Assembly (NCBI GenBank): GCA_937625935.1
Contig: OW569353.1
Span: forward strand, 548,121 to 612,120
Direction: 5' to 3'
DNA length: 64,000 nt
Origin: Tetramitus jugosus
Lineage: Eukaryota > Heterolobosea > Eutetramitea > Acrasida > Vahlkampfiidae
The position numbers and the translations under genes are program-made. Positions 55,392 to 64,000 of this stretch are shown here, piece after piece. Under the pieces are notes generated by a model. That model had not been told where the DNA came from. It did not search any database and worked only from the letters and a program-made list of their open reading frames with translations. Positions within the stretch are counted from its first letter, which is position 1; every line of letters starts with the position of its first letter.

Positions 55392-55505
55392 GGGTGGGTT
55401 TGGGTTTGGGACTTTATATTCGTTTCTGAACCGACAAAATATTGCCTTTTATGGAAGGGGAGTGTCTAAATATGGTTTTGGGAGGTTTTTGAGTTTGGGT
55501 TTGGG
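55392..55505. repeat. Two interstitial TTTGGG stubs flanking 83 bp
   Basis: Telomere-like stubs are at 55392-55410 (GGGTGGGTTTGGGTTTGGG) and 55494-55505 (TTTGGGTTTGGG), in the same orientation as the terminal array. They bracket the left edge of copy B. Confidence 0.75.
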
Positions 55506-56522
55506 ATTTATGTCATAAGTCCAGACCCAACCCAAAGGACTTTTTCAGTACAACTTTTACTCATCTCAACGAGCTCTAACAGGATTTAACAGGATTAAAA
55601 CTCTATCGTCTCGAAGAGACGATCGCTCCCTGCTTTAATTAACAGATTTTAACTGCAACAGGATTAAAACTGCAACAGACTTTAACGACAGATTTTTTCA
55701 TCAAACCATGAGATTAGCACTGGACTGTATGATAAGAGAACAGTTTTTTTTCAGGTTTTAGACTGAAATTTTAGACCTCTTGTATTCATTTAAAGCATTA
55801 AATACGTTATTTCATGTTGTTTTTTCGGCTGATTGAATTGCATTTCAGTACTATGACTTTTGATTCACTTGAAATTCTCTTGACCTGAAGATTTTAACCA
55901 GTTTTAGAGATAATTTGGATACGATGGAGATATTTCGTTGTAGAATGAGATGTTTTCGGTAGAATAGGCTGATGAACGAGAGATTTCATTCTTGAAAGGA
56001 ATATTTTGACATATTGGACAGGCAGAATGAGATTTAAACTTGTCAGTGCATAAGATGAGTGCGGAGTTGCAAGTTCAGATCCAATCTTCATAAAACAAGA
56101 GTAACTCTTGCTTGCTGATAAGAATTCATACCTATGAACGTAAATGACTGTGAAATGTTGCAGAAAACACTATTTTGGAGTGAGATTGGCTCTTGAGAGA
56201 ATATATTTCTATTGTTCTGATTTCCTTGAGTGCAGAGTTGAATACCCAGACCCAACCCATCATAACTGAAGAGAAATAGAAATGACTACTCATTAAAGAT
56301 ATATTGACTCACTAAATTGCCTCCAATCCTTCCAGATTTTGAGCATTGAATGACAGAATTTCTGTTTTCGACAAAGAGTAGGGAGTGAATGTCAAAAGAT
56401 GGATATAGAAATGAACTGAGAGATTTTAGCTTCCATTAATCATGTTTGATCAGATTTTAGATGATAGATCGTTTCTATTTTGAATTTGGATGAAATTTTT
56501 GATTTTTGAGAAAGAAGTTGAC
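55506..56522. repeat. Subtelomeric non-coding repeat, copy B
   Basis: A roughly 1-kb A/T-rich unit bounded by TTTGGG on both sides. Its left part matches copy A. Its right part (56232-56522) matches copy C (62922-63210) at most positions, e.g. TTTCTGTTTTCGACAAAGAG, GGAGTGAATGTCAA and TTGATCAGATTTTAGATG. A hairpin ATCGTCTC-GAA-GAGACGAT at 55605-55623 corresponds to a compensated hairpin in copy C. The left edge carries G-strand repeats followed about 25 nt later by CCCAACCCAAA, which could fold back. No open frame longer than about 65 codons is convincing. Confidence 0.78.
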
Positions 56523-56540
56523 TTGGGTTTGGGTTTGGGT
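56523..56540 (+). repeat. Interstitial TTTGGG tract at the 3' junction of retroelement copy 1
   Basis: TTGGGTTTGGGTTTGGGT lies between copy B and the retroelement. The last part (from 56532) is also present at the start of copy 2, so it may belong to the element's own 3' end. Confidence 0.8.
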
Positions 56541-56749
56541 TCAAACACTCCACTATGGGGCGCGAGAGTGGCGAGTGAGATGTTGTTGTTGTTTGTTAGT
56601 TGTGGTATATTTACGTGCAACACAGGTATTCGGGCTGGTCGCAAATCTAGTGCGGTGCCTAAACATGAGCACTCTACACCACAACTTTATTATTTATACT
56701 AAAAGTGCAGGTCAACTTGGCTGCACAAAAGTCTTGAACCTTGGAAGAT

Positions 56750-56858
56750 TGCAAATGCCCATTGGGCCGATAAAAATGGTCCGTAGGACCATTTTAATTG
56801 GCCGTTGGCGATTTGCACTGTAGTCGGAGCCGTACCCCGTACGGTTTATCCTGACTAC
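56750..56858 (-). promoter_or_regulatory. Two strong hairpins in the retroelement 3' untranslated region
   Basis: Hairpin 1 (56750-56817) pairs TGCAAATG with the opposite arm ATTTGCA and contains an inner stem around AAAATGGTCC-TAC-GGACCATTTT (minus strand). Hairpin 2 (56820-56858) has the outer stem GTAGTC/GACTAC and the inner stem CCGTAC-GGG-GTACGG. Both are repeated identically in copy 2 (61793-61901). They are good candidates for reverse-transcriptase recognition or RNA stability. Confidence 0.6.
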
Positions 56859-56870
56859 GAATCTTATGGT

Positions 56871-59800
56871 TCAGTACCACTTGTAGTCCATGCTATCAAG
56901 TTTGCGTTTCTTGATGCGAGGTGCACTCTGCATTAACGTACAACCCTTTGTATCTCTCACTCTCTTAGATACAACGGTTGTATTCACGTTGCAAGAGTCC
57001 CATGTGGACTGTGAAGGAGTTGTTTTGTGTCGTTTGGCCATTGCCGCTTCGACAGCCTCCTTTTCCCTCAAGTACCTCTTATTTTGGGTCTTGGGTGGGT
57101 TTGGGCGCAGGTGCGTTGCTGACTTCGTCAGCATCACGCACCCGCGTGATGTTTTGCGAAGTCGCAATTGCAACTGGCGTCGAATTGTTGAATAACCACT
57201 TCCCCTTTCCGAAAATGATCGGATCAGTCGTTGTGCAGCAAATGAAGTACGCTGCCAACGTCGTTTGTGGTTACCAACAACAACGTCCATCAATGTTCTT
57301 GCCATTTTCTTCTTTTCTTCTTCGTTTGGCATTTGATCACATTGTTGCACCCAAGTGTTGAATTTGGTTTTGCATGCGTGCAGAACTTCCCTAATGTTGG
57401 GAAGTCTGACATTGCAAATGACCAATTCCTTTGGCAAGTCAATCTCATTGAAGAGAGAAATGGCATTTATCAATTGTCGATAATTGATGCCACTGCCAGA
57501 GTGTAACACTTTCCAAATTGGTGGAATTTTTGGTTTGTGTTGCAAGTCCAATTTTTGTTGGTACTTGATCACTCTGGCTTGCCAGTCAATTGATTTGCAG
57601 TATCGTTCAACGAGTGCAAAGTAATTGTTCTTTTTGAACATTCGTTGAACGAAATGGTGGTCATAACCTCTTCGGATTAACCGAGAGGCAAACAATGTTC
57701 GAATTGAATCGAATTGTTTGAAGTGATCAACAAGGCGAGCATATCTTACCAACTCACCTGTGATCAGACCTTTCCTTGCTGCAAATGAAGACGCTGACTT
57801 GTACATGGAGTACATGTACTTGTTCAATGGCTTCTGGTAGACATTGAAGTGAAAGCGCCATAATGGAACTGCAAAGTTCTCATAATACTTTTCCAATTGG
57901 ATGTGCAAATCCAGGAAAACATTATTGTCTGCTTTGCAGAGTTTCAAATCCGAACCATTGTACATGTTGACAATGGTAGGTATGCACTCTTTTGTGCAAG
58001 CAATGAACAAATCGTCAATGTACCTCACTGCAATGCAGTGGGATCTGTTGACTTTGGTCAAGTGTTGCAACTCATAAGCAAGTAGCACAAGGTTGGCTAA
58101 TTCAGGCGCACAATTTGTGCCCATTGGAAGGCCAATTACTTGTTTAAAAATGCTATTGTTGAGTTCCTCACATCTAATGTATGTGCAGGTTAACACAAAA
58201 TGCAATAACAATTTCATTGCACCAATTTCTTGACTTGTCCAAGTGTTTGGTTCAAGTTGTTGCATCATTTCAAAGATGTACTCCATATTTGTTTTGATGA
58301 CGTCATGTCTCAAATTGGTGTACAATGCAGTGAAATCATAGCTGTAGGTTTGCAGCTTTGGATGTACTGTGAATTCCCACGTTGCTCCATTCTGCAAGCA
58401 CCATTTGTTGAGAACCAGTTTCGCTTCATATGAAGATGAAACAATGGGCATTACTGGTAGTAAACCCTGGTCTCGTCTTTGCTGTAGTTGAGTGATCATT
58501 AGACGGAGTCTAATGCTGAGCAGTTTGGATGCTTCAGTGTTGACCCAACTATGGCTGGCGACAATTGGTCGACCTTGGAGTTTGTCTTTGTGCACTTTTG
58601 GCAACAAATAAAACTTGGGAATGGACAATTCATTGATATCCTCAATTTGTCTTGTTTTCCGTAGGTGTTCACCCATAGATGGGTGCAAATTTGAGATCTT
58701 ATCAATGCACCAGTGTGTGAGAATCTTGATTGTTGAGACTGTGTATCTTTTGTTCTCTCTTATGCTGTACACTGGGCTTTCAAGTTGTTTCTTACATTCT
58801 TCAATGTAATTGTCTTTGTGCCAGACAGCGGTGCCCAAGTTCTTGTCTGTGTCACAAATGATCCATTCTTCATTTGTGACGAGTCTCAATAGGGCCTCAT
58901 TGTCAATGCCGTTCAGGTTTTGAACAATTGGAGCATTGTGTCTTTTTCTCCATGCTTCTTGGATCAGAGCACGAGCCGACGAATGGAGGATGTCATTGCT
59001 GACGTCAAGTTTCTTTGTTAATTGCAAAAATGATGAAAAGTCAAGTTCTTGCATGATAAAAGGGTTAATTTTCATTGATGGAATGAACTTTAGGCCTTTG
59101 TTCAACACTTGTACATCTTTAGTCTTGATAGCAGTTGGTGTGAGGTTGAAAATGATGTTTGAACTTGCAGGAACATTGCTGTTGTGCGGTTCAATGGTTT
59201 CTCCCTCCAGCAAGCACTCTTGACGCGTGACGTTGTTTTTCTTCCTTGTTGTGCTGTTGGATGCTTGATATCTTGAAGAACCAGGCCGTGGGAGTTCATA
59301 ATGAAACTCCTTGTGTTTTGGTTCCTGTTGTATGCAGGAAACCATCCTTGTTCTGACAGGTGCGGAGTTTCTTGAAAAACTCCGATTGATCAAACAACCG
59401 TCCAAATGGTGATTTGGATGTCTCCTTGGCATCCTGGTGGATGGACAGCTCATGGATTGCTGATTTGGCTTGGAATCGGTGAAAAATTGGGCATGGATTC
59501 CCCTTTCTTTTGGACCGATTTTTTTCCTCTGCTCTTGGTGGGTTGGTTGGTTTTTTTTGGCTTGTGTTTTTTCCTGTTGTACTTTTTGACGGTCTTCCCT
59601 CATTGATAGAGACCTATTGAAGCTTTCTTTTGGAAAACTGACCACGCCATTGTGTTCCTTGAGGTCACTTGTAGGTGCATGGAGGTTTCTTTTGTTCATC
59701 AAGTGTGTGCTTGTGTTTATCAATTTTGACCTTCGTCCCTCATTCCACAGGGATGTAGGAGAAATATCTTTTGATGCTAATCGCACTGTTTTAGGTTCTA

Positions 59801-60569
59801 TCCATGTAGTACTTGATGATGTATCTGTTGTCTTTCTAGTAGATCCTCTAGTGCTTTGACTGTAGTCAATTTCTAGTTTTCTCCGATATGTTTGAGTCAA
59901 CAGCTCATTCAAAATAAATCGAAATTGCGTGTTCAATGCGCCATTAGATTCAGAAGGTACGAAAGCACCTAGAATGTGTGTAAATGGCATTAATGACTTC
60001 ATTCCTTGTGTGCTGTTTCGATTGGGAAATGAAAAACTCCGATCGAGAATACAACCAATGAGGAAGTTATTTTCATGATTTTTCTTGTCATTATTAGTTA
60101 TATACTGTTTAGTAGAACACCTTTCCAGTTGGAATGACGGTTTTACCTGATGTCCTTGATGGATGGTGATCCATGATAGATTTTTTTGAGTTCCAGGACT
60201 CAACCATTCATTCAAAACATGAATTTTCTTCATTTTGTTTTGAGTTTTCATTATATCATGGTGATAAGTATTGTTAACAGTGGAATAACGAGATTTGTCT
60301 TTGTAATTCCTATCTTTCATTTGTTCGTTAAAATGACAGTCAATTAAATGTCTCAGGCCAAAAAAAAGGTTTTTTTTGGGCCTAACATTTGTGTTCGAAT
60401 GAAATTTTTCAAGGGGATTTCTTTGCGCTTGTTGTAAGCGTTGCTCCTTCACCTTGGCAGACCTGTATTCAAATTGGTTCTGGAGACCAATAACCACCAC
60501 AGGTTGGTGGTGTTTGATGGGAACGAGATGGGAATAGTGGGCAATGGAGCAAATTTTGTCCCATTTCAC
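56871..60569 (-). CDS. Retroelement ORF2: Penelope-like reverse transcriptase without visible GIY-YIG endonuclease
   Basis: The frame is open from 60692 but has no ATG near its beginning (60569 is GTG). The first ATG lies about 80 codons inside, so expression may need frameshifting from ORF1. Residues are numbered from 60569. The first ~540 are basic and variable. The RT then shows KVHK 658-661 with RPIVAS, motif A YSYDFTALYTNL (D745), motif B GLPMGTNCAPELANL (from 813) and catalytic Y850-I-D-D853. The thumb-like part follows. The last ~250 residues are basic (NHKRRWQRTSFAAQRLIRSF) and contain no GIY-YIG or zinc-finger nuclease pattern. This fits endonuclease-deficient Penelope-like RTs, relatives of telomerase RT. 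No stops or frameshifts interrupt it. Confidence 0.9.
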   Translation of the reverse strand: MKWDKICSIAHYSHLVPIKHHQPVVVIGLQNQFEYRSAKVKEQRLQQAQRNPLEKFHSNTNVRPKKNLFFGLRHLIDCHFNEQMKDRNYKDKSRYSTVNNTYHHDIMKTQNKMKKIHVLNEWLSPGTQKNLSWITIHQGHQVKPSFQLERCSTKQYITNNDKKNHENNFLIGCILDRSFSFPNRNSTQGMKSLMPFTHILGAFVPSESNGALNTQFRFILNELLTQTYRRKLEIDYSQSTRGSTRKTTDTSSSTTWIEPKTVRLASKDISPTSLWNEGRRSKLINTSTHLMNKRNLHAPTSDLKEHNGVVSFPKESFNRSLSMREDRQKVQQEKTQAKKNQPTHQEQRKKIGPKERGIHAQFFTDSKPNQQSMSCPSTRMPRRHPNHHLDGCLINRSFSRNSAPVRTRMVSCIQQEPKHKEFHYELPRPGSSRYQASNSTTRKKNNVTRQECLLEGETIEPHNSNVPASSNIIFNLTPTAIKTKDVQVLNKGLKFIPSMKINPFIMQELDFSSFLQLTKKLDVSNDILHSSARALIQEAWRKRHNAPIVQNLNGIDNEALLRLVTNEEWIICDTDKNLGTAVWHKDNYIEECKKQLESPVYSIRENKRYTVSTIKILTHWCIDKISNLHPSMGEHLRKTRQIEDINELSIPKFYLLPKVHKDKLQGRPIVASHSWVNTEASKLLSIRLRLMITQLQQRRDQGLLPVMPIVSSSYEAKLVLNKWCLQNGATWEFTVHPKLQTYSYDFTALYTNLRHDVIKTNMEYIFEMMQQLEPNTWTSQEIGAMKLLLHFVLTCTYIRCEELNNSIFKQVIGLPMGTNCAPELANLVLLAYELQHLTKVNRSHCIAVRYIDDLFIACTKECIPTIVNMYNGSDLKLCKADNNVFLDLHIQLEKYYENFAVPLWRFHFNVYQKPLNKYMYSMYKSASSFAARKGLITGELVRYARLVDHFKQFDSIRTLFASRLIRRGYDHHFVQRMFKKNNYFALVERYCKSIDWQARVIKYQQKLDLQHKPKIPPIWKVLHSGSGINYRQLINAISLFNEIDLPKELVICNVRLPNIREVLHACKTKFNTWVQQCDQMPNEEEKKKMARTLMDVVVGNHKRRWQRTSFAAQRLIRSFSERGSGYSTIRRQLQLRLRKTSRGCVMLTKSATHLRPNPPKTQNKRYLREKEAVEAAMAKRHKTTPSQSTWDSCNVNTTVVSKRVRDTKGCTLMQSAPRIKKRKLDSMDYKWY
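57118..57167 (-). other. Cluster of three hairpins inside the ORF2 coding sequence
   Basis: Three back-to-back inverted repeats: GCTGAC-TTC-GTCAGC (57118-57132), CATCACGC-ACCC-GCGTGATG (57132-57151) and TTGCG-AAGT-CGCAA (57154-57167). Copy 2 of the element breaks off at the position equivalent to 57105, just before a reverse transcriptase would meet this cluster. Confidence 0.6.
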
Positions 60570-60598
60570 CTTCTTCGTTCCTTTTTGTGTAGAATCAT

Positions 60599-61528
60599 TT
60601 AGTTCCTTTGTTTTGACCCTCGTCTTGACTTTCCTCGTGGTCTGCGAGGGGAGGATGGTTTGCGAGAGGGTTTTTGTTCTTTTTTTCGACCCCTACTGTT
60701 GCTAGGTGATCTTCTGGTCTTAGAGCGACCTCTTTTGGGAGATTTGGATCTCGGTTGGTTCTTTTGTTGTTTTCCTTTCGAAGGAGAACGACTATATGCT
60801 CTTTGGGTCTTTGAACGACCGCGAGATTTAGAACGATTTGAGCGAGCACGAGGTTTGGAATTGTCACGTCTTGGTCGTGATTTGGACCTTGCTCTTGATT
60901 GTTTACCAGCTTGAGCACTAATGCTGATTCTCCAATATGGAGCAGGTTTTGCTGGTACTTGGTTTTCTCCTTCATCGCTCATTGCGTTTTGTTGCTGTTG
61001 GAGAGCAATAATTCTTGTATGTTCTCTTTTTTCCTCTTGTCGTTTTTTGAGTCTTGTGTTCAATTTGTAAGACTGTACTTGAGTGTTCATCTTATTGATG
61101 TACTTGTCAACAGTGGTAACAAATGGACCTGTTCTATGCAATTGTAGTTCTTGTGTAGCTTCAGCAAGTGGTGCATCAGTATTTTTTGTCATTTGGTTCT
61201 TGCAATTGTTAATGAGGTCAGCGACATGTTCTTCAGCAGTCTTGATATATGCATTGGTCAATTGTGTAATGCTGTGATTGAATTTTTCAGACATTTCTTT
61301 ATCAGTAGAGACTGTGGCAGTGGAAGCAATGGTGAGCCATAAGTGTTCTAGCCTTCCTTGGAGGATGGCTGTCAGTTGCATGTTATTTTGCAAGTATTGT
61401 TGTTGCTTCTTCTCGGCAGTGATGGCTTTGCCAATGTTTGTCTTATACTTGTTGATGGCAGATGAGATAATCTTTTCCAGAATAGGATTATTCATTGCTA
61501 CAAGTGACTCTGCTGATGATTGACTCAT
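60599..61528 (-). CDS. Retroelement ORF1: helical N-terminus, Arg/Ser-rich basic C-terminus
   Basis: A 309-residue protein. Residues 1-180 are helical with coiled-coil character (e.g. NPILEKIISSAINKYKTNI; LKKRQEEKREHTRIIALQQQ). Residues 205-309 are dominated by Arg-Ser and Lys-Ser pairs (RARSKSRPRRDNSKPRARSN), like an SR domain. Such a tail could bind the element RNA, enter the nucleus with SR-protein import, or be phosphorylated. These are inferences. The start ATG is the complement of 61526-61528, 46 nt from the element's 5' end. ORF2 overlaps its last 94 nt in the -1 frame. Coiled-coil ORF1 proteins occur in large telomeric Penelope-like elements of rotifers, but homology is not claimed. 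Confidence 0.75.
   Translation of the reverse strand: MSQSSAESLVAMNNPILEKIISSAINKYKTNIGKAITAEKKQQQYLQNNMQLTAILQGRLEHLWLTIASTATVSTDKEMSEKFNHSITQLTNAYIKTAEEHVADLINNCKNQMTKNTDAPLAEATQELQLHRTGPFVTTVDKYINKMNTQVQSYKLNTRLKKRQEEKREHTRIIALQQQQNAMSDEGENQVPAKPAPYWRISISAQAGKQSRARSKSRPRRDNSKPRARSNRSKSRGRSKTQRAYSRSPSKGKQQKNQPRSKSPKRGRSKTRRSPSNSRGRKKEQKPSRKPSSPRRPRGKSRRGSKQRN
60680..60686 (-). promoter_or_regulatory. Candidate -1 ribosomal frameshift heptamer between ORF1 and ORF2
   Basis: On the minus strand ORF1 reads CGA AAA AAA GAA here. A-AAA-AAA has the X XXY YYZ form in the correct phase. ORF2 is in the -1 frame and its last upstream stop (TAG, complement of 60693-60695) is just before the heptamer. 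The two frames overlap from 60692 to 60599, so a -1 slip would fuse them. No pseudoknot was established downstream. Confidence 0.45.
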
Positions 61529-61574
61529 GGTTTGTGAGGAGTTAATGATATTAGTAATGTAAACCACTCAAATA

Positions 61575-62148
61575 GGTTTGGGTTCAAACACTCCACTATG
61601 GGGCGCGAGAGTGGCGAGTGAGATGTTGTTGTTGTTTGTTAGTTGTGGTATATTTACGTGCAACACAGGTATTCGGGCTGGTCGCAAATCTAGTGCGGTG
61701 CCTAAACATGAGCACTCTACACCACAACTTTATTATTTATACTAAAAGTGCAGGTCAACTTGGCTGCACAAAAGTCTTGAACCTTGGAAGATTGCAAATG
61801 CCCATTGGGCCGATAAAAATGGTCCGTAGGACCATTTTAATTGGCCGTTGGCGATTTGCACTGTAGTCGGAGCCGTACCCCGTACGGTTTATCCTGACTA
61901 CGAATCTTATGGTTCAGTACCACTTGTAGTCCATGCTATCAAGTTTGCGTTTCTTGATGCGAGGTGCACTCTGCATTAACGTACAACCCTTTGTATCTCT
62001 CACTCTCTTAGATACAACGGTTGTATTCACGTTGCAAGAGTCCCATGTGGACTGTGAAGGAGTTGTTTTGTGTCGTTTGGCCATTGCCGCTTCGACAGCC
62101 TCCTTTTCCCTCAAGTACCTCTTATTTTGGGTCTTGGGTGGGTTTGGG
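61575..62148 (-). mobile_element. Second, 5'-truncated copy of the Penelope-like element (574 bp)
   Basis: Identical, as far as I can read, to 56532-57105 with a constant offset of 5,043 and no indel. It contains the 3' untranslated region and the last ~78 codons of ORF2, and stops at the element's own GGGTGGGTTTGGG. There it continues directly as TTTGGG repeats. A long minus-strand frame across the junction codes a Pro-Asn-Pro-Lys repeat that is simply translated telomere sequence, not a protein. Confidence 0.9.
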
Positions 62149-62219
62149 TTTGGGTTTGGGTTTGGGTTTGGGTTTGGGTTTGGGTTTGGGTTTGGGTTTG
62201 GGTTGGGTTTGGGTTTGGG
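62143..62219 (+). repeat. Interstitial TTTGGG tract capping the truncated element
   Basis: About 12-13 units of TTTGGG, with one shortened GGGTTGGG unit near the right end. The first unit overlaps the element's own sequence. This looks like a former chromosome end that was later extended by copy C. Confidence 0.9.
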
Positions 62220-63210
62220 GATACATCCTGGATTCCCCAACCTAAGGAAACGATTTCCTTATATGGTAATTTTTTTTTTGAGATTTTTTATTGCTCTAAG
62301 AGCTTCAGCTGGTTGAGACGAAGAGATTGGCATTGTTTTCAACTCGATTTGAGCTTTATCGGCTCGTAGAGCCGATATATCTGTGCTGTATTTGACATAT
62401 TTTTATCGGCAACAGTGTTAAAACTGCAACAGATTTCAGTCGATTTTGATCCTGTACTGGAGTTAAGACATTCGATTGAGACTTGATTTCTTTAGTTTGG
62501 ATCAGGATATTGAGACAGTATTTGATCATTTTTAACATGATTTTCTTCCAACTATAGTTTTTGCCTCAGTTTTTGAGTACCTGATTTTTCAGAATTTTTG
62601 ACAGACTTGATTTAGTGTTTTTCTGGAGAGAATAGACAGATTTTATTAAATAATCACTGTAGAATCAGATGTTTTATCTAGTAATGAGACTTTTCTACGT
62701 AAAATCCTGTAAGACAGTGAAATATTGAAGTTTCAAATTTGAATCGAGTTTATAGTTGAAACGCCAAACTCAACCCGTCAGAAATCCAGAGTACTAGCTT
62801 TTTCTGAATGAAAATTCATATTTATGAATGTGATAGACTGAGAGTCTTGGAAAAAATTCTTCTTCTGAGATAGATCGGCTCTGACCGAATGAGGGCTCGG
62901 ATTTTGTCGTTTTCGTGCATGCAGAGTTGAATACCCAGACCCAACCCGACATAACTGAAGAGAAAAAGGAATGATTACTCATAAAACGTATATTTACTCC
63001 CTAACTTGCCTCAAATTCTTCCAGATGTTGAGCATTGGACGAGAGAATTTCTGTTTTCGACAAAGAGTAAGGAGTGAATGTCAAGAGATGGATATAGAAA
63101 TGGACTGAGTGATTTGAACTTTCATTAATCTTGTTTGATCAGATTTTAGATGGCAGATCGATTCTATTTTGAATTTGGATGAAGTTTTTGATTTTTGAGA
63201 AGAAAGTTGA
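62220..63210. repeat. Subtelomeric non-coding repeat, copy C
   Basis: A diverged third member of the family, bounded by TTTGGG on both sides. The right 290 bp align with copy B (56232-56522). The left part shares GTTAAAACTGCAACAGATTT and a hairpin TATCGGCTC-GTA-GAGCCGATA (62357-62377) with copies A and B. The middle also shows homologous words such as AATTCATA(T/C)(T/C)TATGAA. No gene is supported. Confidence 0.75.
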
Positions 63211-64000
63211 TTTGGGTTTGGGTTTGGGTTTGGGTTTTGGTTTTGGTTTGGGTTTTGGTTTGGGTTTGGGTTTTGGTTTGGGTTTGGGTTTGGGTTTGGG
63301 TTTGGGTTTTGGTTTGGGTTTGGGTTTTGGTTTGGGTTTGGGTTTTGGTTTTGGTTTTGGTTTTGGTTTTGGGTTTGGGTTTGGGTTTGGGTTTGGGTTT
63401 GGGTTTGGGTTTGGGTTTGGGTTTGGGTTTGGGTTTGGGTTTGGGTTTGGGTTTGGGTTTGGGTTTGGGTTTGGGTTTGGGTTTGGGTTTGGGTTTGGGT
63501 TTGGGTTTGGGTTTGGGTTTGGGTTTGGGTTTGGGTTTGGGTTTGGGTTTGGGTTTGGGTTTGGGTTTGGGTTTGGGTTTGGGTTTGGGTTTGGGTTTGG
63601 GTTTGGGTTTGGGTTTGGGTTTGGGTTTGGGTTTGGGTTTGGGTTTGGGTTTGGGTTTGGGTTTGGGTTTGGGTTTGGGTTTGGGTTTGGGTTTGGGTTT
63701 GGGTTTGGGTTTGGGTTTGGGTTTGGGTTTGGGTTTGGGTTTGGGTTTGGGTTTGGGTTTGGGTTTGGGTTTGGGTTTGGGTTTGGGTTTGGGTTTGGGT
63801 TTGGGTTTGGGTTTGGGTTTGGGTTTGGGTTTGGGTTTGGGTTTGGGTTTGGGTTTGGGTTTGGGTGGGGGTGGGGTTGGGGTTGGGGTTGGGGGTGGGG
63901 TTGTTGTGGGGGGGGGGGTTTGGGTTTGGGTTTGGGTTTGGGTTTGGGTTTGGTTTGGGTTTGGGTTTGGGTTTGGGTTTGGGTTTGGGTTTGGGTTTGG
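63211..64000 (+). repeat. Terminal TTTGGG telomeric array
   Basis: The proximal 160 bp (63211-63371) mix TTTGGG with TTTTGG and TTTTGGG variants. Next come about 82 uninterrupted TTTGGG units (63371-63865), a G-rich irregular patch with GGGGTT units (63866-63918), and TTTGGG again to the window edge. The orientation, G-rich strand running 5' to 3' toward the right, is that of a right-hand chromosome end. The variant-rich proximal zone is typical of telomere arrays. Confidence 0.92.

Follow-up and report, generated by a model that had tools for sequence, protein, structure and literature searches.

Organization of the locus

The window analysed here comprises 64,000 nucleotides of the Tetramitus jugosus genome (C10:548121-612120, in an assembly of 26.35 Mb with 56 contigs and 112 contig ends), and its right edge coincides with the end of contig C10. 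Close to this end lies a Penelope-like element (PLE), very probably an endonuclease-deficient (EN-deficient), telomere-attaching retrotransposon and as such a representative of a known kind. It occupies 56532..61572 on the minus strand (5041 bp) and is apparently of full length, with its RNA 5' end near 61572 and its RNA 3' end near 56532. A second copy (61573..62148, minus strand) directly adjoins this element at its 5' end. This head-to-tail copy comprises 576 bp, shows 100% identity to the corresponding stretch of the first copy and is 5'-truncated, stopping at a motif which is internal to the element. An interpretation of the identical partial copies as long terminal repeats or target-site duplications is ruled out by this arrangement.

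Read outwards from position 55392 the contig end consists of a 19-nt leader, unit F, TTGGG TTTGGG TTTGGG, the two PLE copies, nine TTTGGG units, unit A with its leader of 20 nt and, at the tip, roughly 790 bp of telomere, all features besides the PLE being given for the plus strand. The first leader (GGGTGGGTTTGGGTTTGGG, 55392..55410) is a variant of the leader present at other contig ends, and the host DNA appears to end there. The older subtelomeric unit F (55411..56522) starts with ACTTTATATTCG, a start also found at C51R, there directly after an exact leader; by eye, the outer part of unit F is similar to unit A. TTGGG TTTGGG TTTGGG (56523..56539) marks the junction with the RNA 3' end of the PLE, and positions 56520-56542 read GACTTGGGTTTGGGTTTGGGTTC. 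Because GG(G)TTTGGG also begins copies at the non-telomeric junctions of C9L inner, C50 and C7, the last GGTTTGGG (56532-56539) was assigned to the element. Outside the second copy follow the nine TTTGGG units (62149..62202) and the exact 20-nt leader GGGTTGGGTTTGGGTTTGGG of unit A (62200..62219), whose first GGG overlaps the last TTTGGG. Subtelomeric unit A (62220..63210, about 1 kb) has matches at 40 contig ends and contains no open reading frame (ORF) of 120 amino acids (aa). The terminal TTTGGG telomere (63211..64000) completes the contig, and within it a short G-rich irregular tract (63866-63917) can be seen, for which a sequencing error is possible.

A preliminary description of this DNA had reported an intact reverse transcriptase (RT) with KVHK, GLPMGTN and YIDD motifs, two uninterrupted ORFs, no GIY-YIG nuclease and TTTGGG at the 3' junction, all of which could be confirmed. 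It had also described two seemingly identical copies and apparent growth onto a chromosome end. The copies are indeed identical over their shared part and the contig does end in TTTGGG, but the second copy is a 3' fragment and not an intact element, and the element is not outermost, as unit A and the telomere lie outside it.

Coding capacity and relationship of the element

Both ORFs of the element are open and lie on the minus strand. ORF1 (60599-61567) has 322 aa with the first ATG at residue 14, and its C-terminal part is basic and Arg/Ser-rich (40% K/R from residue 215). No convincing Pfam match was obtained for ORF1, with which a wider search was not made. ORF2 (56871-60569) encodes a PLE-type RT of 1232 aa counted from a GTG, with the first ATG at residue 84. 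In the Pfam scan of ORF2 only RVT_1 was found, below threshold (22 versus a cut-off of 29.6 bits), together with a Med2 match at chance level. The motifs PKVHK (58587-58601), GLPMGTN (58113-58133) and RYIDD (58011-58025) can be read from the sequence on the minus strand; in the catalytic RYIDD motif R, I, D and D are invariant in the alignments. Because ORF2 sits in the -1 frame relative to ORF1, lacks an ATG before codon 84 and has a possible -1 frameshift site, A_AAA_AAA (60680-60686, minus strand), within its overlap with ORF1, it is possible that ORF2 is made through a -1 frameshift from ORF1.

The closest relatives of ORF2 are P0133 (59% identity), P0001 (43-44%) and P0240 (33%). The relatives show PLE-type motifs and some also a PLE nuclease; they are not named as PLEs, but we take them to be such from the shared motifs, the GIY-YIG arrangement in some members of the wider set and general knowledge of the group. 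By its own RT motifs and these nearest relatives the element is classified as a PLE. A quick RT tree based on 71 of 133 rows groups it with P0133, P0001 and P0240 (91), followed by P0005, P0010 and P0012 (97); a nuclease-like match exists for two of the latter three, and branches are long. As the tree includes no Athena or Coprina reference sequences, no named PLE clade (Athena, Coprina or other) was assigned. In a profile search against the PDB a defence-associated RT ranks first (1.3e-6), a maturase RT next (2e-4) and TERT follows with 0.01, so that TERT as the best PDB relative of ORF2 was not borne out. The host itself possesses TERT (Telomerase_RBD, 137.6 bits).

In comparison with the window copy, three older copies yield dN/dS values of 0.12 (C9L inner), 0.09 (C9R) and 0.13 (C50). 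C17 differs by five synonymous and two other changes, C48 by three synonymous and one other, and C3 inner shows no difference over 714 codons; identity to the first window copy is 99.5-100% for C3, C17, C48 and the second C10 copy. The RT is under purifying selection (dN/dS near 0.1), and this selection together with the high-identity copies makes recent activity of the PLE family plausible.

Canonical Penelope elements are characterized by a GIY-YIG endonuclease, and Pfam detects none in this element. Pfam, however, does not find every nuclease of this type: PF01541 is absent from the precomputed domains of P0004, P0009 and P0011, yet these proteins match a PLE nuclease profile derived from three endonuclease-bearing relatives (P0009 being one of the seeds). 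Applied to PLE hits outside the seed, this profile gives 46 bits for P0011, 36 for P0004, 35.5 for P0165, 21.5 for P0160 and 11 for the fifth, whereas across the six frames of the element it does not exceed 3.7 bits, which is noise level. At the sensitivity of this profile a nuclease inside the element itself is refuted. The genome contains three GIY-YIG matches above the Pfam cut-off. One of them, C47:381738-382061, lies about 5 kb from a contig end and is a protein of 107 aa whose N-terminus is signal-like; no PLE match was found on contig C47.

Genomic location and orientation

PLE loci were collected by searches with the protein, the 3' end and the 5' region, and the 18 loci obtained are a lower bound; C28 (2e-5) and C12 (6e-4) are weak members of the set, and C40L contributes 63 bp of ORF1-region sequence. 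From these at least 18 loci, 16 are situated less than 15 kb from a contig end, a zone which makes up 6.4% of the genome (binomial 1e-17). As a control we used the 73 RVT_1 matches of the genome, five of which belong to the PLE family. Only two of the other 68 (C22:2739 and C1:4436) fall within 15 kb of an end (16/18 versus 2/68, Fisher p 2e-13, comparing loci, fragments included, with single RVT_1 matches). Lengths were at hand for part of the contigs, which seem to be numbered in order of decreasing size. Of the 16 end loci, 13 are oriented with the RNA 3' end towards the chromosome interior (two-sided p 0.02). The family is thus found mostly at chromosome ends with its RNA 3' end inward, as is characteristic of EN-deficient telomeric PLEs.

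Junctions of the element

Thirteen 3' junctions could be compared. Four are with telomeric repeats, one with the end of a subtelomeric unit plus a partial repeat, one with another PLE copy and five with non-telomeric DNA (C9L inner, C50, C7, C17, C22), and two are rearranged or incomplete. The junction of C3 inner runs via a partial repeat, that of C8 is rearranged, and in C9R the 43 nt at the very end are missing. A start with GG(G)TTTGGGTTC is seen in copies joined to telomere, to another PLE and also to non-telomeric DNA (C9L inner, C50, C7); at the remaining non-telomeric junctions the C17 copy starts with GGGTTGGG (also given as GGGTTGGGTTC) and the C22 copy with GGGTTTAGG (also given as GGGTTTAGGCTC). 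The 3' end of the element carries the telomere complement GAACCCAAACC(C), which is retained at C50, C7 and C9L inner and takes the form GAACCCAACCC at C17 and GAGCCTAAACCC at C22, so that a reverse-complement telomeric repeat is present at the 3' end. As starts of the GG(G)TTTGGG type are kept even off the telomere, about 1.5 telomere units seem to belong to the RNA of the element.

The 5' ends were read in 14 rows, one of which is an alignment gap; 13 remain, 11 of them resolved at end loci. Nine of these 11 (9/13 with the internal loci included) meet telomere-like sequence or the next unit or copy, i.e. truncated 5' ends followed by telomeric repeats do occur. Three copies (C3 outer, C3 inner and the second C10 copy) run straight into telomere repeats and C22 into a short repeat tract followed by other DNA, which gives plain TTTGGG-type repeats at 4/13 5' ends. 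Three others are followed by the leader plus a subtelomeric unit, which is of type A in C17 and C48 and is not matched by the A search in C9L inner. The first C10 copy meets another PLE and C9L outer meets unit B, at the internal motif. From the tip, the left end of C3 consists of telomere, 576 bp of PLE, six CCCAAA units and 2481 bp of PLE.

A telomere-like motif inside ORF2 (GGGTGGGTTTGGG, 57093..57105, plus strand) is the stop point of three truncated copies, as the second C10, C3 outer and C9L outer copies all end at the internal GGGTTTGGG. The former two are identical and maybe go back to one event; C9L outer is about 70% identical there and continues directly with unit B. Once exposed, the internal motif may seed the next addition.

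The preliminary description had proposed attachment to chromosome ends without an endonuclease, which is supported by the location at 16 of 18 loci, by the orientation and by the junctions. It expected all copies to abut TTTGGG and to point in the same direction. Most end loci do point inward, but three point outward (C29R, C21R, C12R) and five 3' junctions are on non-telomeric DNA; the expectation was too strict, as the telomere-like start is retained even at non-telomeric junctions. Internal copies with target-site duplications had been named as evidence to the contrary. Copies C50 and C7 are internal, but no clear target-site duplication was found: C7 has a 3-bp GAA on both sides, explicable by chance, and C50 was left out of this assessment as its 5' boundary is not resolved.

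The internal copy C50:166943-171258 seems, by eye, to lie among LINE-like coding sequence (LINE, long interspersed nuclear element), near the middle of a 329-kb contig. Its 3' flank ends with ACTCAAATG, close to ACTCAAATA at the element's own 5' end, which may be chance or a tandem trace.

Non-coding subtelomeric units and their leader

Matches to unit A (993 bp) are located no more than 7 kb from the tip at 40 contig ends, with 40 of 62 candidates scored in the unit A search; for unit B (query of 841 bp) the number is 27. Taken together, 64 of the 112 ends have one or the other unit, and three of them have both. Another three B matches are situated deeper inside (12, 16 and 79 kb), and a further three, on C46 and C32, were kept apart in this count; C46 is another end. 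Inner boundaries were read for 52 copies (29 A, 23 B), a subset of those existing. In 38 of the 52 the leader GGGTTGGGTTTGGGTTTGGG is present with no more than two changes, and in 35 it is exact; 12 deviate more strongly, and for two the script gave no placement. The 38 leader copies were also compared with one another in 40 bp of flanking DNA, which is mutually unrelated (mean identity 0.27, one of 703 pairs alike); the C10R flank is telomere, and those of C49L, C12L, C37L, C34R and C38R resemble other subtelomeric units by eye. A T precedes the leader in 24 of the 38 copies.

Ten B copies are truncated. Three of them run into plain telomere (C42, C37, C23), one stops at the contig end (C14), four continue with a short regular TTTGGG tract and then another unit (C38, C25, C15, C44R; C15R and C44R are alike), and two lie far from the tip, without telomere or tract. 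The telomeres and tracts at these truncations (3 + 4 of ten) are all without irregular TTGGG. Unit B as an unbroken element of 841 bp was rejected, as longer versions exist in C49L, C33R, C36R, C2R and C11R. Therefore the four copies in which all 841 bases are exact (C39R, C9R, C9L and C3R) share one truncation point, a pattern that for these four favours copying between ends and counts against a separate retrotransposition of each. The alignment of B copies extended past the units into the flanks and was left out for structure.

A search with the exact leader hit 89 places, many at extreme contig tips, versus 47 for the reversed control. Among 17 further places that were read, eight are unit boundaries, five are plain telomere on non-telomeric DNA, three lie in repeat arrays and one, 9 kb in at C3R, is a leader followed by unclassified DNA. 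The unit boundaries belong to unit A at C34L, C45R and C25R and to other units at C24L, C38L, C45L, C46R and C51R, where the further unit types GTTTTCGTAAACC, ATTCCCTTGTCCC and ACTTTATATTCGC directly follow the exact leader. The five plain telomeres (C13L, C13R, C21L, C49R, C50R) start with the irregular leader GGGTTGGGTTTGGGTTTGGG, and C13L and C13R have the same flank.

The leader and unit A seem to travel together, because at C10R a regular telomere array is followed by the leader, which contains the odd TTGGG, and an identical A (993/993) sits on non-telomeric DNA at C7R. Whether the leader is simply the regular start of telomerase was also considered and rejected, since the truncated B ends lack irregular TTGGG; but five plain telomeres do have the leader, so neither reading is clean. 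The pattern would fit RNA copies with a shared 3' tail, which C10R and the regular distal caps favour, and also a telomerase-made seed followed by recombination, which is favoured by plain telomeres beginning with the leader. It is conceivable, though we would rather doubt than assert it, that the chromosome ends arise for the most part through RNA copies being added at their tips, with the PLE as the coding member and A and B (probably also D, E and F) as non-autonomous partners with a shared RNA 3' tail CCCAAACCCAAACCCAACCC, joined to broken or eroded unrelated DNA, telomerase being present as well. In a related reading telomerase may copy its own template once in full, giving the leader, and the unit RNA would then take over as the next template. 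If units are added from RNA, A or B RNAs would end at CCCAAACCCAACCC. This non-coding system is the more novel part of the finding, its mechanism being hypothetical.

Proposed attachment to chromosome ends and alternative explanations

Anatomy, location, orientation, junctions, the lack of a detectable nuclease, the selection on the RT and the presence of TERT are direct observations; the priming chemistry, the RNA ends and the source of the caps we infer from them. In the proposed mechanism the RNA of the PLE, whose 3' region is followed by GAACCCAAACC, would pair with the TTTGGG overhang, and the RT would start at the 3' end of this RNA and copy it onto the 3' hydroxyl of the telomere or of a chromosome end that has been broken or eroded. 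Because of this direction of copying, the RNA 3' end would point inward and the next addition would be on the 5' end. Copying would often halt early, and telomerase or another end unit would then seal the truncated end. Attachment to ends without an endonuclease explains the location, the orientation, the telomere-like sequence at truncated 5' ends and the head-to-tail additions.

Several observations weigh against this explanation. Two loci are internal, C50 at a distance of about 159 kb and C7 of about 57 kb from the closest contig end. Their 5' junctions are not telomere-like, and with those of C9R and C8 they make up the 4/13 5' ends without telomere-like sequence; the C50 row is an alignment break at which PLE-like sequence extends upstream, with no telomere-like sequence in the stretch read. 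The three outward-pointing end loci are all diverged fragments. ORF1 and the possible full-length 5' end are found in the window copy only, and because no other copy has ORF1, the element length and ORF1 rest on a single copy. A hammerhead ribozyme was found neither with Rfam (56400-62300, E up to 5) nor with the pattern CTGANGA...GAAA, which a degenerate motif could escape; other Rfam families match the element or unit A only far below their gathering scores and were rejected. The 3' untranslated region (UTR; 56532..56870, minus strand), which ends in the telomere complement, folds well as a single RNA in the window copy (z -5.9; 0 of 100 shuffles as good). Seven aligned copies yield no support from covariation (term +4; both sides changed in 4 of 74 pairs), and their alignment is gapped where C9L outer shows, by eye, a similar hairpin with other letters. 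A conserved RNA structure of the 3' UTR was therefore rejected.

The most serious alternative, which we nevertheless consider improbable, is that a few old insertions were spread passively between subtelomeres by recombination, with little recent retrotransposition. Recombination of this sort would account for the identity of unit A between C10R and C7R (993/993), for the identical 576-bp PLE pieces of C10R and C3L with their common truncation point, for the proximal flank which C34L, C34R and C38R have in common and for the B truncation point and next unit shared by C15R and C44R. But the PLE copies C3 inner, C17, C48, C9L inner and C22 differ in their 3' flanks and truncation points, which suggests separate attachments, and a dN/dS near 0.1 requires continued selection on the RT.

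The element could also have reached these sites by insertion into existing telomeric arrays with a nuclease from elsewhere, in the way that TRAS and SART LINEs insert into telomeric repeats with their own endonuclease. Arrays would then flank both sides, and this is indeed seen at C48, at the outer C3 copy and at the C10 pair taken together; the three genomic GIY-YIG matches could provide the nuclease. Such an origin is very improbable, because insertion into an array does not yield the mixed junctions of C17, C9L inner and C22, non-telomeric on the 3' side and telomere-like on the 5' side, and because the one of these GIY-YIG matches that was read, on C47, is a small protein on a contig without PLE match. 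Least credible of all is an endonuclease-bearing Penelope whose nuclease was overlooked or split off: the Pfam model does miss the nucleases of P0004, P0009 and P0011, but the PLE profile, which recovers those of P0011, P0004, P0165 and P0160, stays at noise level in the element.

Comparison with known systems

The finding is confirmed, and its mechanism, of a known kind, is well supported. It places telomere-attaching, nuclease-free PLEs in a heterolobosean host and offers a legible record of additions to chromosome ends alongside telomerase. The cathepsin X of this host has 65% identity to a protein of Naegleria gruberi and 67% to one of Willaertia magna, which are the heteroloboseans named among the 120 hits listed; hits with other names or with none rank higher. 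If the units are added likewise, coding and non-coding end-attaching RNAs would share chromosome capping with telomerase, which would bear on how telomerase and retroelements came to share this role. Among the open-licence papers surveyed we found no report of such PLEs in Naegleria or other Heterolobosea. Neither the passages considered of PMC3266345 nor the Penelope passage of PMC3482391, both of which mention Penelope and Naegleria, contain a heterolobosean PLE.

According to passages of PMC6431247, EN-deficient PLEs have two ORFs, copies truncated by telomeric repeats and tandem arrays, and at their 3' end a hammerhead with a short telomeric tract in reverse complement behind it; PMC3846280 describes how chromosome ends or breaks serve for priming, with telomere addition afterwards. 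The element resembles the Athena elements and Terminons of bdelloid rotifers, as these are described there, in its PLE RT without adjacent GIY-YIG and its size (two-ORF form 4-6 kb; PMC6431247, PMC3846280), in the reverse-complement telomeric tract at the 3' end, in 5'-truncation by telomeric repeats, in head-to-tail arrays and, as proposed, in priming at telomeres or breaks. It differs in that no hammerhead was found just before the 3' telomeric tract, where the rotifer Terminons have one, in that no extra ORFs were seen (Terminons reach up to 40 kb) and in the telomere repeat, TTTGGG; kinship with Athena is judged by description. The fungal EN-deficient telomeric PLE of Mycosphaerella graminicola, whose orientation is fixed at each chromosome end according to the relevant part of PMC4522978, is similar in its subtelomeric position, fixed orientation, 3'-terminal telomere repeat, low copy number and host telomerase. 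It belongs to a different host lineage, and the likeness is one of description and not of sequence.

TRAS and SART are likewise retroelements among telomeric repeats, but they cut the array with their own endonuclease, and none was found in the element described here. Both are named as insect LINEs in a passage of PMC10088271. As a further comparison system, Drosophila HeT-A, TART and TAHRE are treated in part of PMC5537684. The chromosome ends studied here share with that system terminal attachment and head-to-tail growth, and in both cases coding and less coding units are mixed. The three Drosophila elements use a LINE-type RT in a host without telomerase, whereas here a PLE-type RT is found beside telomerase and TTTGGG repeats.

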